DNA of 43,965 nucleotides from an uncultured SAR86 cluster bacterium (GCA_902605935.1 CACLEI010000009.1:1-43965), one strand, 5' to 3'. Positions 8,326 through 15,202 are shown, counted from the stretch's first letter. Notes: generated by a model not told the origin, from the letters alone. Translations and numbers: made by a program.

Positions 8326-8751
8326 ATGAATACACAAGAAGTTAATACTATATTAAACAAAATAATAGAGTATGAGTTAGCTGGAGTTGTCAGATATACT
8401 CACTCTGCCCTAATGGTAACAGGACCCTATAGATTGCCTATAGTGGAGTTTTTAAAAGAACAAGCTAATGAATCGCTCATGCATGCTCAGCAGGCCGGTG
8501 AATTACTTACAGGTCTAGATGGACATCCCAGTCAAAAAATTGCAAAAATTGAGGAGACGAATGATCATTCCATACAAGGTATTCTGGAAGAAAGTCTCGG
8601 GCACGAATTAAATGCTCTTAACCTCTATAAAGAGTTATTATCGGTTGTAGAGGGTAAATCAGTATATTTAGAAGAATATACTAGAGGCTTAATAGGAGAG
8701 GAAGAACAGCATCAACTTGAACTTAGAAAAATGCTCAAAGACTTTAGTTGA
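8326..8751 (+). CDS. Ferritin-like / bacterioferritin-like protein
   Basis: EYELAGVVRYTHSALMV ... ANESLMHAQQAGELL ... ESLGHELNALNLYKELL ... GEEEQHQLELRKML: E...ExxH diiron four-helix pattern. Confidence 0.85.
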   Translation: MNTQEVNTILNKIIEYELAGVVRYTHSALMVTGPYRLPIVEFLKEQANESLMHAQQAGELLTGLDGHPSQKIAKIEETNDHSIQGILEESLGHELNALNLYKELLSVVEGKSVYLEEYTRGLIGEEEQHQLELRKMLKDFS

Positions 8752-9133
8752 TCTTACAAAAATTTTTAAATTGATTTAAAGATACATTAATTATATTGAC
8801 ATCCTTTGGATTGAAGGTTGTTTGATATATAAAATATTCATTGTTTATAGCAATTTGTTTATATTTACTTTTCTTAATTTCAATTTTGACACTTCTGTTT
8901 AATATAAATTTTTTCCAGCAACTCTTGAAGTCTTTATTGACTTCTTCAGGTGAAATAAATGAAAGAAACGCATTGTTTCTTATTATATTATTTGAAAGAG
9001 AAGCTGCTTGAGCATCTAATTTAAAAAAATTTTGTCCTTCGTTCTTGATCCTAAACTTTGTACTAAATAATTCTTGCGAAAATAGAGAAAAACTTAAAAT
9101 TAGAATTAATAAGCTAAAAATCGTCTTCATCAT
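8744..9133 (-). CDS. Secreted hypothetical protein; last gene of the CsgG-like operon; start moved to the internal MMK
   Basis: The ORF is open further upstream, but the signal peptide MMKTIFSLLILILSFSLFS begins at 9133, overlapping the 3' end of the preceding gene by 20 nt. Confidence 0.6.
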   Translation of the reverse strand: MMKTIFSLLILILSFSLFSQELFSTKFRIKNEGQNFFKLDAQAASLSNNIIRNNAFLSFISPEEVNKDFKSCWKKFILNRSVKIEIKKSKYKQIAINNEYFIYQTTFNPKDVNIINVSLNQFKNFCKIN

Positions 9134-10430
9134 CGCCACCAGAAGATCCAGAATCATATTCTTGAGGTTGAATGACTTGGTATTCAGTACTTGATCCAGA
9201 AGCATCAGGCTCTTTTTCTAAAGTTTCCTTCATACTTTTTGCAAAATTTGCATCTGAAGGACTCCAGGACACTACAACTCCTGCAACTGGTCTAGAGGTT
9301 ACAGGATGTCTTTGTACCCATCTATGAATAACTTTAGATCCTTGTAGCGTTCCATTTGCTGAAGCTCTCTGCCTTCTATCTATATTTTCTTCGGTATAAG
9401 TATCAATCATTCCATTAGCTTTTTCAGTTGTAATTTCAAAGTTATCTATTTTTTCTTGGACTTCAACATTTTCACTTCTAAACTGGATTATTGCTCTTTC
9501 TGCTTTAAGCTTTGCTGTTCTAATTGCAGCTTGTTGAGAGTTGGAAGTACTAGATTTAATTCCAGACTGAGCATAACTTAGAATAGACATATCACCATTT
9601 TCATCTCTGTCCATAAAGGTTCCAAAAGTTACCATTAAAGCATCTCCTTTTTTTACTTGATCTTTAAGTGGTTTCTTTTTTTTCTTAGGATTACTTAATA
9701 CTTTAAAATTACCTGTAGTCATAGCATCGGCATATTTAACAAAGTTCTCTGACCAAACAACCACATTACAGACATTTGTCTTATTGGAATTAGGTTTAGC
9801 ACTTAAATTAGAATAAACAACTTTCATTCCTCTTATGTTTGAAGAAGCAGTAGCCTCTATAGAATCACGAAATACATTTTGACTTAAAATACTATCAATT
9901 TCCTGTTGTAACTCTCGCTCATTTTCACCAACTTTATCTTTATTTTCTGATGAGATTGATTCATCTAATTTTTGATGAATTAATAATTTCATCTTTTGAT
10001 AAACGGATAACTCTTCGTAATTCTGAGCTTCTAGATCATTATTGGTTACAACATCTACTGGTTTGACACCTTCCTTGAAGGATTGAACGAATTCATTAGA
10101 AATTTCACTGGTTATTTGCTTAGCTTGATTTTCTGCCATATCCGTTTTTGCATTCATTTGAGCCCTAATAAATGCATTTTGAATACTATCAATATATGAA
10201 ACTTGCTGCATACTAGCTCCAGAAGATCCTATTCCTACACCTACATAAAAAGATTTACCCTTTCTAGTATTTTCTCCCTCGGACCACCCCTTGCCATCGA
10301 TATAGTCAAAACATGCTTGTCCATCTAAAGAGTATTCCTCTTGTATTTCTCCATCAGGAAATTCTTCTTCAAAAACCTCCATCGCATATAAACTACAAGG
10401 AAGTGCTAATAATATAAGTAATTTTTTCAT
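9114..10430 (-). CDS. Secreted protein of unknown function with LPP20/FlgT-like repeated helical modules; start moved to MKKLLILL at 10430
   Basis: Signal peptide MKKLLILLALPCSLYA; two segments of the 'AxxxAxxxAxxAI' type (IQNAFIRAQMNAKTDMAENQ; QQAAIRTAKLKAERAIIQF); acidic C-terminus SGGDDEDDF. Confidence 0.7.
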   Translation of the reverse strand: MKKLLILLALPCSLYAMEVFEEEFPDGEIQEEYSLDGQACFDYIDGKGWSEGENTRKGKSFYVGVGIGSSGASMQQVSYIDSIQNAFIRAQMNAKTDMAENQAKQITSEISNEFVQSFKEGVKPVDVVTNNDLEAQNYEELSVYQKMKLLIHQKLDESISSENKDKVGENERELQQEIDSILSQNVFRDSIEATASSNIRGMKVVYSNLSAKPNSNKTNVCNVVVWSENFVKYADAMTTGNFKVLSNPKKKKKPLKDQVKKGDALMVTFGTFMDRDENGDMSILSYAQSGIKSSTSNSQQAAIRTAKLKAERAIIQFRSENVEVQEKIDNFEITTEKANGMIDTYTEENIDRRQRASANGTLQGSKVIHRWVQRHPVTSRPVAGVVVSWSPSDANFAKSMKETLEKEPDASGSSTEYQVIQPQEYDSGSSGGDDEDDF

Positions 10431-10447
10431 AGTATTTTTTTTAATTT

Positions 10448-11752
10448 TTACCAATCTTCATCAAATTTTTTCTTTTGTTCAGCTCTTTTTTTCTCAATCT
10501 TAATCTTTTGTTGTTCTTTGTTAAATTCATCAGTTAAAGGTCGAACTAATATCATTTTTGGTTTAAAAATTTCTTCTAGGTTGTCTTTAGTTGTATTTAT
10601 TATGTTTCCATAGGCTTGTTTAGGTGTGACAGAAGTTATCTTTATCAAGCCAATAACCTCTTCAGACCTTCCTAAACTTTCCTTTGTATAGCTATCTATA
10701 ATCTTGTCTCCTCGTAAAATCAACTGCATTTGTTGACCTCTTGAAATAGACTCTCCCCCTTGGCCTAGAATAACAACATTCCCTTTTATAGATTCAACCA
10801 ATATCGGAAAAATTGCGTTGAGGATTGTTTCACCTATCTTTTTTGATCCAAGATTTAAAGTTGAGTACATTATTTCAGTAGGAGAATTTTGATTTGTAAT
10901 CCCTATTTTTTTGAGTTCAGAATTAGAAATATTTACAGTTGCATTACTTGAAAATTTAACTTGCGAAGTAGGCACATCAATTATTCTATAAGATACCTGA
11001 ACCACGCCTTGAATTTCTTGAAAAGTCATATAATTAGTTCTCATACTTCTAACTACTTCTTTAATCTGAGCAGTAGTTATTGTTCCGACTAAAATATAAT
11101 CCGAAAAAAGTTCTTGGCCTAATTTAGCTAATTCTTGTGAGGGAACATCTCCGGATAGCATTTTTTTCTCTGAACTTCTTTCTTGAATATAATCTCTATC
11201 TAGTACAGTGAATTTTCTTGATTGAACCAAGAAGTTGGATAAACCTCTAGAAAGCTCTTGAGCAGCAAAATCAGGATTAGTTTCTGCACCCATCATCATG
11301 CAGCAATCTCCTCTAGCTTGAAATGGAAGAACAGCTATCCTCTTTCTTTTGGCAGATTTTGAAACTTTATACTTAGCAATAATTGCGCTGACTCTTACCA
11401 CCCAAAGGGAAGAATCAGACATTTTATTTTTAGATAAAATATCATAACTCTTTATTTGACCTTTCGACTTAGATTGAATTTCATCTTGATATTCTTGTGA
11501 AGAAAAATAATTTGAATCATTATTTTTTTGCTCTGATACTTCTATAGTTTTCAGAAAAGAAGAGCTCTCCATACTTTTACCATTAACTCTCTCAATGGCT
11601 TGTATCAGAGCTGAATCAATTGCTTCCTTGACTGATACTCCAGTACTTTCTATCTCGATTTTTACATACTCTAAACTTGATCCAACAACATATTGAGCAG
11701 ATATAAGTCCACAAAAGAGTATAGTTAAAAGTTTGCTCCTAATGTTGATCAT
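10448..11752 (-). CDS. CsgG-like protein with an N-terminal FlgT/LPP20-like domain
   Basis: KRKRIAVLPFQARGDCC... AAQELSRGLSNFLVQSRKFTVLDRDYIQERSSEK...GQELFSDYILVGTIT matches the CsgG/HfaB fold. N-terminal GVSVKEAIDSALIQAIERVNGK resembles FlgT_N/LPP20. TAATG junction with the upstream gene. Confidence 0.75.
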   Translation of the reverse strand: MINIRSKLLTILFCGLISAQYVVGSSLEYVKIEIESTGVSVKEAIDSALIQAIERVNGKSMESSSFLKTIEVSEQKNNDSNYFSSQEYQDEIQSKSKGQIKSYDILSKNKMSDSSLWVVRVSAIIAKYKVSKSAKRKRIAVLPFQARGDCCMMMGAETNPDFAAQELSRGLSNFLVQSRKFTVLDRDYIQERSSEKKMLSGDVPSQELAKLGQELFSDYILVGTITTAQIKEVVRSMRTNYMTFQEIQGVVQVSYRIIDVPTSQVKFSSNATVNISNSELKKIGITNQNSPTEIMYSTLNLGSKKIGETILNAIFPILVESIKGNVVILGQGGESISRGQQMQLILRGDKIIDSYTKESLGRSEEVIGLIKITSVTPKQAYGNIINTTKDNLEEIFKPKMILVRPLTDEFNKEQQKIKIEKKRAEQKKKFDEDW

Positions 11753-12435
11753 TAGAATTCATCGGCTGGCATTTCTTTTTCTGCGTTAGATGTATCCATT
11801 TTCTGAGACTTAGCAAATGAAAACACGCCTTTAGATGACGTACCTAGAGTTTTTAAGAAATCAGGTATTGCTTTAGCTATTTTCATACCTCCAGCTAACG
11901 ATTTCCTTAATTTATTAAGTTTCATTGGATTTCTTAAAGATTTCATTTCACCTTGAGCAGCATCAATCCAAGATTTTGCTTGATCTGAAACTTTTACAGT
12001 TAAAGCGACGCCTTGTGCATATGGCAAGAGCCCTTTTACATATTCTTGTTTTGCTTCAGCGCTCAATTCTCCTGCTTTAGATTCTGCTTCAGCCCCCGCT
12101 TTTCTTGCACTGGCAGTAGTCTCCAAGGCTGAATTTAAATCAACATCACCATCTGAAGAAAGTGTATCAGCTCGACTCTCAGCTGCAGCTGCCGCTTCGG
12201 AATTTCCCAAAGCTTTTTGAAAATGTGATTCGGCTTTATTCAAATTAGCTAGGGCCTCTCGCATTGTTGCTTCAAGATTTGCTTGTGCCGATGGCAAATC
12301 AACAGCAGGACTATCATCTGAACCGCCTCCAAAGCCAGGTAATTTAGGAACTTCTGGTAACGCAACACTCATAATCGAAAATGAAAACAAAAATGTTGTA
12401 ATAAAAGTAAACAATTTGATATTTAAAATTTTCAT
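11752..12435 (-). CDS. Secreted Ala/Glu-rich helical protein of unknown function
   Basis: Signal peptide, then low-complexity helical NLEATMREALANLNKAESHFQKALGNSEAAAAAESRADT...; C-terminus EKEMPADEF. Confidence 0.65.
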   Translation of the reverse strand: MKILNIKLFTFITTFLFSFSIMSVALPEVPKLPGFGGGSDDSPAVDLPSAQANLEATMREALANLNKAESHFQKALGNSEAAAAAESRADTLSSDGDVDLNSALETTASARKAGAEAESKAGELSAEAKQEYVKGLLPYAQGVALTVKVSDQAKSWIDAAQGEMKSLRNPMKLNKLRKSLAGGMKIAKAIPDFLKTLGTSSKGVFSFAKSQKMDTSNAEKEMPADEF

Positions 12436-12449
12436 GTTTTCTCCTTTTT

Positions 12450-13562
12450 TTAAATTTTATTAATTAATTCATCTATGGCCATATCTGCAGCTAAATTTAA
12501 TGCTTGATTTTCAGCCAGCCTCTCATCAGCCCCCAAACCTGTCCTTGCAATTGGCCCAACAAACGCAAGTATTTCTTCAAATCCATCATCAACCCAAACT
12601 AACTGTGCGTTAATGTAAACATCTACAGCGGTAAGTCCAGTGTCAGGGTCAATTCTGGGAGGCCCTGCATCCATAGTACCAAGCAAAAAATGTTCTACCC
12701 TTCCAGAGATTGCTGGATGATCAAATCCTGCTACTAATGTAACGAAAGAGTTACTGGATATATTTGACTCTCCATTGCTAGTATTTCCTATAAATTCTTG
12801 CCTGATAGTATCAAAGAGTCCATCATTTCCAGTTCTAGTATCAATAGACGCACCTAACATAGGTCTAGTTTGTATTCTTTTTAAAGAATTAGCGATAGCA
12901 TTATCAACTCCGGCTTGATTATCACTTAGAAGATATTCTCGCTGTTCAGATTTCTTTACAGCACTGCCACCTGTAGTGATTTTTGATCTCTCAGTTGTTT
13001 GCCCAGAGAAACTAACAGAAGTGTCATCAGAATAGCTACTTTCATCTGAATCAATCATCGTAATCTTTTCGCTTTGTGTTGTATTTTTAGTATCAAAGCT
13101 TTTAGCTGAGGATACTTTTCTGGCAACTATGTAATAGGCAACTCTTTTACCTTTTAGTGCTGAAGAGGCTCCTGTTGAACTGTTATATTGTGCTAAAGTT
13201 ACATCCACCATAGTTGAGTTGATTGAAGCTTTAATGGCTACTGTATAAACTCTTCTACTTTTAGAACAATCAGTCTCTAAAATGGCATATTCAGTTATAT
13301 ACTTATCAAGCTCTGAAACAAAGCTTCTGCTGTTAGCCATGTAGTTGCTCATCTTTTCCGCACTAAACTTGCCAGTATATTTATCCCAAGCCGCCTTTTT
13401 TGCTTTTTCAATGGCCTTAAAATGATCATCTTTGCTCCTTGGCCTATTATCTTTACATTTTCCATTAAACTCGACTGTGCCTACACCGGTTGAATAGGTA
13501 GTTGCAGAATTTATTGAAAAAGGCATTAAAAGTATTGCTATAAAAAGGGGTAATAATTTCAT
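12450..13562 (-). CDS. Secreted protein of unknown function (LPP20-like features)
   Basis: Signal peptide MKLLPLFIAILLMPFSINSA; KAIEKAKKAAWDKYTGKF; C-terminal GADERLAENQALNLAADMAIDELINKI. Confidence 0.65.
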   Translation of the reverse strand: MKLLPLFIAILLMPFSINSATTYSTGVGTVEFNGKCKDNRPRSKDDHFKAIEKAKKAAWDKYTGKFSAEKMSNYMANSRSFVSELDKYITEYAILETDCSKSRRVYTVAIKASINSTMVDVTLAQYNSSTGASSALKGKRVAYYIVARKVSSAKSFDTKNTTQSEKITMIDSDESSYSDDTSVSFSGQTTERSKITTGGSAVKKSEQREYLLSDNQAGVDNAIANSLKRIQTRPMLGASIDTRTGNDGLFDTIRQEFIGNTSNGESNISSNSFVTLVAGFDHPAISGRVEHFLLGTMDAGPPRIDPDTGLTAVDVYINAQLVWVDDGFEEILAFVGPIARTGLGADERLAENQALNLAADMAIDELINKI

Positions 13563-13594
13563 AATTTTTTCTCTCTATTTCTATTTAATCTTAA

Positions 13595-14839
13595 TTATTT
13601 GACTTGTTCTAGTGTTTCCTTGATGTATTCAAAATACCTTTTTCCTTCCTTGTATTTCATATTGGTTTGCTGAGGGATCCATTTTCTTTCGGTTTTCTCT
13701 ATTTGCTTAGCATACTCTTTAACTAATTCTTTTATAGAATTATCAAATTCTCTCCAATCGTTTATAAAGTCTCCTTTTACAGTTTCTAAAACATAACCAT
13801 TTTTGACCTTTGAACTTTGTTTAGAAATTAAGCCACCAAAATCCATAGTTATATATGAACCGTACACCCAGGCTTCCCTTTTAGGCGTTTCATCCATCAA
13901 AGATTTAGCAAATCCTCTTATAGCAATATCAAACGAATAATCTAATTCAGGTAAAGTTAAGTCAATAGCAGTTCCATCAGAATATTTAAGTTGTACCTTG
14001 CCTCCCACAGAGCCGGCAAAGGGAACTACTAAAGGAACGCTAAGAGTTGAAGATATAGTTTTTGCAATATATTGTGAAATCCAGTCCTTATAACTTTGTT
14101 CATCAAAACCACTTTCATTAGTAAAAAAAGGATGAGATATAAAATCTTCCTTTCCTGACAATATTGCTCTAGCTCTATCGGTTATAGAAATATTTCCTAT
14201 ACCTGCAAATCTAATATTTTTCTTTTCAGATATTCCAAGGTTGGATACAACGTAACCTATTTCTTTCATTAAACCATTGCCTGAATTTATAAGGGTTATG
14301 TTGTTACAGTTATTTTGTACTTCCGCTTTTGAATAATTCTCATCTGTTTCAAGTCCCAGAAATATCTGACAAAATCTAAATTTGTCTCTTTCTTTATCTC
14401 TTTTTTCTGTAGTGCAGCTAGAAACATCTTGTTCAACGTAATTCCTGCTTCTTCCTACAGGATGAGTTTGCAGAACATTCATTCCTTCGAGTTCAAATAG
14501 AATTACTTGGGCAGTTATTGTGTATTGCCACAGACAAACATCACCTAACTTTCCGCCAGTTATTCGCTCTTTATCAAAAGCAACAACTATACTCTTAGTC
14601 TGACCCGTAGAAGCTAGTCCTCTAGGTGACAATAAATATGGTTTGTCCATGGCTTCAACAAGTTGATATTGCATAGGGGCCATTTTTTCCTTCAGTGCAT
14701 TAAAATTAGGAAATAAATCTTTATCCTTTGATTTAGCACTTATAGTGTAACCTCCCCAAGTTATAGTTTCTTCTGAATAAATGTCGATGCTCAAGAATAG
14801 GAAAAAACTCAAAAAAATTTTGGCAGTAAGAGAGCGCAT
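13595..14839 (-). CDS. Secreted protein of unknown function, first gene of the CsgG-like operon
   Basis: Signal peptide MRSLTAKIFLSFFLFLSIDIYS; 414 aa uninterrupted ORF; same strand and tight spacing with the next five genes. No family recognised. Confidence 0.65.
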   Translation of the reverse strand: MRSLTAKIFLSFFLFLSIDIYSEETITWGGYTISAKSKDKDLFPNFNALKEKMAPMQYQLVEAMDKPYLLSPRGLASTGQTKSIVVAFDKERITGGKLGDVCLWQYTITAQVILFELEGMNVLQTHPVGRSRNYVEQDVSSCTTEKRDKERDKFRFCQIFLGLETDENYSKAEVQNNCNNITLINSGNGLMKEIGYVVSNLGISEKKNIRFAGIGNISITDRARAILSGKEDFISHPFFTNESGFDEQSYKDWISQYIAKTISSTLSVPLVVPFAGSVGGKVQLKYSDGTAIDLTLPELDYSFDIAIRGFAKSLMDETPKREAWVYGSYITMDFGGLISKQSSKVKNGYVLETVKGDFINDWREFDNSIKELVKEYAKQIEKTERKWIPQQTNMKYKEGKRYFEYIKETLEQVK

Positions 14840-14965: not shown

Positions 14966-15202
14966 TTATCTCTTATTAGGAGATTTATGCCTACCGAAGG
15001 TAAAATTTCTTTTTGTAATGTGTTTAGTCTTTCTTCCAGTCACCCTCTTTCTCCAAAGCTTGTATGAAGAAAGTTTAAGTTGAGCTTTCATTAGGCCTTT
15101 AACTTCTTTTTCACTTAATCCATAGGCATCATAGATAGCATCAAAAGGAGTTCTATCTTCCCAAGCCATTTCTATAATTCTTGATATGTCACTTTTGTTC
15201 AT
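14966..15202 (-). CDS. DUF2805 / TIGR03643 family protein
   Basis: IIEMAWEDRTPFDAIYDAYGLSEKEVKGLMKAQLKLSSYKLWRKRVTGRKTKH, the diagnostic family pattern. Confidence 0.88.
   Translation of the reverse strand: MNKSDISRIIEMAWEDRTPFDAIYDAYGLSEKEVKGLMKAQLKLSSYKLWRKRVTGRKTKHITKRNFTFGRHKSPNKR

Follow-up and report, generated by a model that had tools for sequence, protein, structure and literature searches.

A conserved six-gene set of exported proteins built around a CsgG-domain subunit: a candidate outer-envelope complex distinct from curli and flagella

What might a row of six genes for exported proteins, only one of them with a recognizable CsgG-type domain, do in a marine bacterium? The locus lies in a stretch of 43,965 nucleotides (the window), which is the entire contig of a 51%-complete genome of an uncultured SAR86 cluster bacterium. 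Six close-packed open reading frames, here called A to F, run along its minus strand from 14839 down to 8744, where the first-pass annotation had placed them. Our best explanation, possible but a little short of an even chance, is that the six form one periplasmic or outer-membrane complex, neither curli nor flagellar, that would brace or remodel the outer membrane. The set itself exists as a unit; the remaining uncertainty concerns its mechanism.

All features of the operon are on the minus strand. Gene A (13595..14839, 414 aa) encodes an exported protein with two predicted LptE/FlgT/CsgG-like alpha-beta domains in tandem, and gene B (12450..13562, 370 aa) one whose front domain is Tip-alpha/LPP20-like and whose rear domain is CsgG-like. 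Gene C (11752..12435, 227 aa) specifies an exported Ala/Glu-rich protein that is probably helical. Gene D (10448..11752, 434 aa) combines an N-terminal domain, a CsgG/LpoB/FlgT_M-like middle and a TsaP-like C-terminal domain, gene E (9114..10430) encodes 438 aa, and gene F (8744..9133) encodes a small exported protein of 128-129 aa. The tight or overlapping spacing first described is borne out, with gaps of 32 nt between A and B, 14 nt between B and C and 17 nt between D and E, a one-base overlap in which the stop of C falls on the start of D (TAATG), and an E/F overlap of ~17-20 nt. Two start codons had to be corrected: that of E is most likely the ATG at 10430 instead of the TTG at 10454, and that of F is most likely the ATG pair at 9133/9130, inside the 3′ end of E, instead of 9205. 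A hydrophobic signal-peptide core is present at all six N-termini (best 11-residue Kyte–Doolittle mean 2.1-3.0), weakest in C, and a hydrophobicity scan found no second transmembrane segment in any of the six proteins. At 33.6%, the GC content of the operon differs little from the 35.7% of the window and thus gives no sign of recent foreign insertion. Just upstream of A and outside the set, a 78-aa ORF (14966-15202) presumably resembles the DUF2805/TIGR03643 family.

The arrangement is not confined to this genome. Nine other SAR86 loci keep the order A-B-C-D-E-F on a single strand; contig ends truncate two of these (L028 without A, L026 holding E-F alone), and the SAR86 loci with the set sit in several different chromosomal surroundings. 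E is present in 10 of the 203 genomes of the SAR86 order, plus one marginal domain match, a rarity that argues against a role in essential envelope upkeep there. A scan with an alignment of D, one genome per species, gave 80 named loci, and the arrangement A-B-(C)-D-(E) is shared by SAR11, SAR116, further Alpha-, Beta- and Gammaproteobacteria, Desulfobacterota, Chlorobi, Verrucomicrobia and Dadabacteria. The synteny thus reaches across phyla, beyond the marine gammaproteobacteria in which a search for it had first been proposed. We define the type-I set as A-B-C-D with E; the window, with A, B, C and D in one locus, belongs to it, and further hosts include Pelagibacterales, Desulfobacteraceae, Opitutales, Limnohabitans (sp. 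Hippo3 at L098) and Cupriavidus metallidurans CH34 (L017). The type-I gene table counts ten loci with A-F (window included), nine with A-E, ten with A-B-D-E, six with A-B-C-D and five with B-D-E; C, E or F is missing from some lineages. In one alphaproteobacterial group (L045, L047, L050, L051, L053), a protein of ~547 aa, unrelated to C and lacking a Pfam match, replaces C between B and D (e.g., L050 8340-9986). The D tree puts L034 (labeled "Flavobacteriales") and L041 ("Neomarinimicrobiota") within SAR86, so taxon names on metagenome-bin contigs can be wrong.

Of the six proteins, D alone exceeds a Pfam cut-off (CsgG, PF03783, 4.4e-11, 42.9 bits versus 20.8), in agreement with the single CsgG-type core noticed earlier. 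Of 12 D homologues, 11 give LpoB domain matches (best 7.6e-7) and 3 give FlgT_M matches (best 0.005), and the D profile matches both CsgG and TsaP structures in the PDB, the latter through its C-terminal domain. Together, the CsgG/LpoB-type middle and the TsaP-like end make oligomerization into a ring likely. For A, the AlphaFold model (pTM 0.83) has Cj1090c as its best Foldseek match (2.9e-4), followed by LptE, PqiC, the Vibrio LPHT ring, FlgT and CsgG, all weak fold matches with a TM score normalized to the query of about 0.2. The model of B (pLDDT 81, pTM 0.54) retrieves CsgG (6e-5), CT253 (9e-4), GNA1162 and Tip-alpha; its rear domain carries a low-confidence extension of ~50 residues with a conserved TGG, and G198-G199 are conserved. 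A, B and D are therefore largely CsgG/FlgT/LptE-like by Foldseek or profile, with A and B seen through predicted models. An apparent homology of B to D in the first profile comparison arose artefactually from a single ORF of 856 aa in L070 (8675-11245) that covers both genes. That joined ORF may reflect a lost stop codon instead of a true fusion; since the D signal-peptide region is kept in it and its relative L072 has two genes, it was not taken as evidence of fusion.

The profile of E matches PDB 4QVR (FTT_1539c) over nearly its whole length (9e-12, profile positions 65-436 of 454), and a self-comparison with hhalign reveals an internal duplication. Window E gives no match at the Pfam DUF6844 (PF20891) cut-off; the domain is matched in 3 of 10 SAR86 E homologues (best 1e-5). 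By sequence, E is a member of the DUF6844/FTT_1539c family, but its operon partners differ from those of 4QVR. LPP20/FlgT-like segments had been proposed for two proteins of the set: the modeled front domain of B fits that description, but the duplication in E was not identified as LPP20. C and F match nothing known, and the relatives found for them all lie within the set. C has no Pfam match, and its homologues come from SAR86, SAR11, Desulfobacterota, Verrucomicrobia and Betaproteobacteria; F is restricted to SAR86-type loci and has an invariant C-W plus a further Cys. For these two the original impression of unrecognized proteins holds, but E has a family, and D and E are known from a partly studied operon class of Francisella.

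Does the CsgG likeness imply secretion? CsgG is the curli secretion channel, and its barrel is made of two membrane hairpins. In a comparable outer-membrane channel, D or B would be the pore and the other proteins would provide gating, a chaperone or the substrate for a surface protein. Such a channel would accord with D passing the CsgG cut-off, with B matching the CsgG pre-pore fold, long low-confidence extension included, and with the genes for large proteins of Ig/cadherin type or for putative surface proteins that adjoin a few loci (L019, L111, L018). However, the D segment at the position of the second hairpin ranges in length from 9 to 50 residues across homologues, with 50 in the window; the hairpin-1 segment is similar in length. 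Unlike CsgG, D also has extra N- and C-terminal domains, and window D has no lipobox by sequence. A lipobox-like signal appears in 3 of 88 D homologues, and the lipobox on D in the A-B-C-D lineages L130-L133 fits an outer-membrane location. CsgF was found in none of the 10 SAR86 genomes that carry the set (51% complete for the window genome, 92% for the best), the E. coli control being positive, and the FlhA family was likewise found in 0 of the 10, with four positive controls. Among the loci examined, no conserved substrate or partner-machine gene lies beside the operon. A reprolysin-like protease (L093), HslV/HslU-type proteasome-like genes and carbamoyl-phosphate synthase each stand beside one or two loci at most and were therefore not taken to indicate a partner system. 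The missing curli and flagellar markers thus leave curli-type secretion unsupported and support an undescribed envelope complex; taken with the lack of a conserved substrate or partner machine, they lead us to prefer a structural complex over a channel, which we regard as unlikely. Two SAR86 genomes (G018, G039) carry tandem short CsgG-domain proteins of 299-311 aa (L030 8745-10576, L031 8957-10788) in an arrangement unrelated to the operon.

The set could instead be a collar, as TsaP and FlgT are, for another envelope-spanning machine such as the secretin of type IV pili. D matches TsaP of solved pilus machines through its C-terminal domain, its middle gives CsgG/TolB-like domain matches as for the Vibrio FlgT/H-ring, and A weakly matches FlgT and the LPHT ring of the Vibrio flagellum. 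Yet no conserved pilus, flagellar or other machine genes adjoin the operon, and the likeness to FlgT and TsaP systems stops at the five other exported partners and at the flagellar export gene absent from the 10 genomes. We consider a collar less likely still than a channel.

A sister class of operons, type II, bears on function. There, the partners of D and E are three proteins, mostly lipidated: f0 (~475 aa), YcfL and LpoB. The 34 type-II loci in the D tree group on a single branch save for one intruder, L106; the class has representatives in Francisella, Azospirillum, Oceanimonas, Amphritea and Sulfurospirillum. The two classes have in common D, E, the final F on E, Sec-type export and the operon layout, and their D and E profiles match at 100% (1.2e-52 for E). 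They differ in that f0, YcfL and LpoB stand where type I has A, B, C and F; none of the three was found in the window or in type-I loci, and A, B and C do not align with them. In Azospirillum, a very large Ig-like domain protein gene (about 20 kb; L019 13005-21020) adjoins the sister operon on a plasmid, and in Alteromonas profundi (L111) the neighbor encodes a 1855-aa cadherin/VWA protein; these large neighbors are not conserved at other loci. LpoB is an activator of a penicillin-binding protein, and the LpoB matches among D homologues, together with a true LpoB and YcfL in the sister class, could suggest that the six proteins are LpoB-like regulators of cell-wall synthesis. We consider that improbable, as the six-gene class lacks precisely LpoB and YcfL and D has two extra domains.

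For the bracing or remodeling complex that we favor, the functional clues all come from type II, which has just D and E in common with type I. In the Francisella genome analyzed here, E is nearly identical to FTT_1539c and the order LpoB-E-D-f0 agrees with the four-gene operon FTT1537c-1540c (PMC4696196). In outer-membrane vesicles, FTT_1538c shows ~100-fold enrichment (PMC6795709) and FTT_1539c is one of the immunoreactive proteins (PMC10963506); FTT_1540c carries the annotation LpoB (PMC8149597). Our Campylobacterota loci read f0-YcfL-LpoB-E-D. The Campylobacter genes Cj0089-Cj0091 are transcribed together and encode three lipoproteins (PMC3100323), and Cj0091 is an ortholog of the LpoB homologue HP1457 (PMC11394524); in Helicobacter, deletion of HP0018, whose homologue is Cj0089, causes hypervesiculation and altered cell shape (PMC11394524). 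Type II probably includes Cj0089-Cj0091 and the genes downstream, and gene order, size, lipobox and the LpoB/YcfL neighbors lead us to infer that f0 belongs to the HP0018/Cj0089 family; f0 shows no TPR by Pfam. By analogy, the sister class thus hints at a tie between the set and outer-membrane vesicles and envelope upkeep. Literature searches on DUF6844, on CsgG with SAR86 or Pelagibacter, and on LpoB with YcfL and CsgG or FlgT returned no description of the six-gene set, no experiment on type I and no characterized pathway into which its members fall.

Is the set inherited as a unit? The 80-locus scan was anchored on D, so co-occurrence was re-examined starting from B and from E. The B search covered 321 genomes at class level and 399 at phylum level. 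Outside SAR86, its strong matches lie in A-B-C-D blocks (G474, G898, G806, G751, G702) and in one E-B-D-f10-A arrangement (G518); A and D adjoin every strong match. Weak matches were seen in G215 and G255, where a weak D relative adjoins, and also in G591 and G810. Starting from E, four loci were examined, with D adjacent in three (G273, G388, G401) and ≤4 kb away in the fourth (G399); E was also matched in two more genomes from the genus of G388. A search of B alone against genome contigs and one of D against viral contigs gave no match. Pairwise distances of A, B, D and E correlate across 28 loci with r of 0.71-0.85, a level reached in none of 500 permutations. Thus, the set behaves as a unit, its homologues are not scattered independently, and the early proposal is upheld as far as a conserved envelope set apart from curli, and here also from flagella, is concerned. 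That six unrelated exported proteins are neighbors by chance is scarcely credible: the patchiness in SAR86 and the loss of C, E or F in some lineages would allow it, but the order kept across phyla, the adjoining D in searches from B and E and the correlated distances contradict it.

The C-termini of D and E offer a clue to assembly. Window E ends in DDEDDF (9117..9134). All 70 intact homologues have F as their last residue and 65 of them end in DF, against 6% and 0.9%, respectively, in a background of 743 neighboring ORFs; median pairwise identity among E homologues is 20%, and the linker ahead of the tail is variable. Outside this count, Francisella E ends in QF and 4QVR in QY. Window D ends in a Lys-rich acidic tail that closes with FDEDW (10451..10465). 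A final W or Y closes type-I D in 43 of 54 loci, preceded by acidic residues and, upstream, a Lys-rich stretch, versus 0 of 30 type-II loci and a background of 5%; several of the exceptions are type-II loci lacking marker genes. Type-II D tails are instead GGV.LPFD/GGVIL-like. In three betaproteobacterial loci, an unrelated SH3-domain protein also ends in a ...KKKGDDDW-like tail. This small exported protein, together with an M48 metallopeptidase, adjoins the type-I sets there (L074 11268-12612, L091 13234-14566, L098 13292-14615). Across three SAR86 genomes, the tail motif occurred near control level and at the end of no plausible exported protein, with patterns that skip TAG stops, Glu variants and even the D and E of the window. 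The invariance of the E tail and the type-I D tail are apparently previously unreported, and both tails may be short docking peptides.

In the envelope complex that we propose, D would be the central subunit, forming a ring beneath the outer membrane, and A and B, with their CsgG/LptE/Tip-alpha-like domains, would be further ring or collar subunits. E would dock onto this assembly, with its invariant DF tail, and the D-x-W of type-I D, as the docking peptide; C could act as a helical linker, and F as an accessory specific to SAR86. By bracing the outer membrane against the cell wall, or remodeling it, the complex would most likely affect blebbing and vesicle release; it would export no substrate. 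Ring formation, docking, cellular location and function are thus put forward conditionally.

More broadly, the locus could represent an undescribed outer-envelope machine, patchy over phyla that include abundant marine bacteria (SAR86, SAR11 and SAR116), with subunits of CsgG/FlgT/LptE fold joined through a docking peptide at the C-terminus (acidic residues followed by F, W or Y at the very end) common to three unrelated locus proteins, a tentative proposal that we put at rather under an even chance. If true, ring proteins of flagellar and curli machines would serve another purpose in cells that have neither. The orphans DUF6844 and FTT_1538c/1539c, and perhaps HP0018 and Cj0089, would come together in a single envelope system open to test, and the invariant DF or D-x-W peptide at the C-terminus would provide a concrete handle on its assembly.
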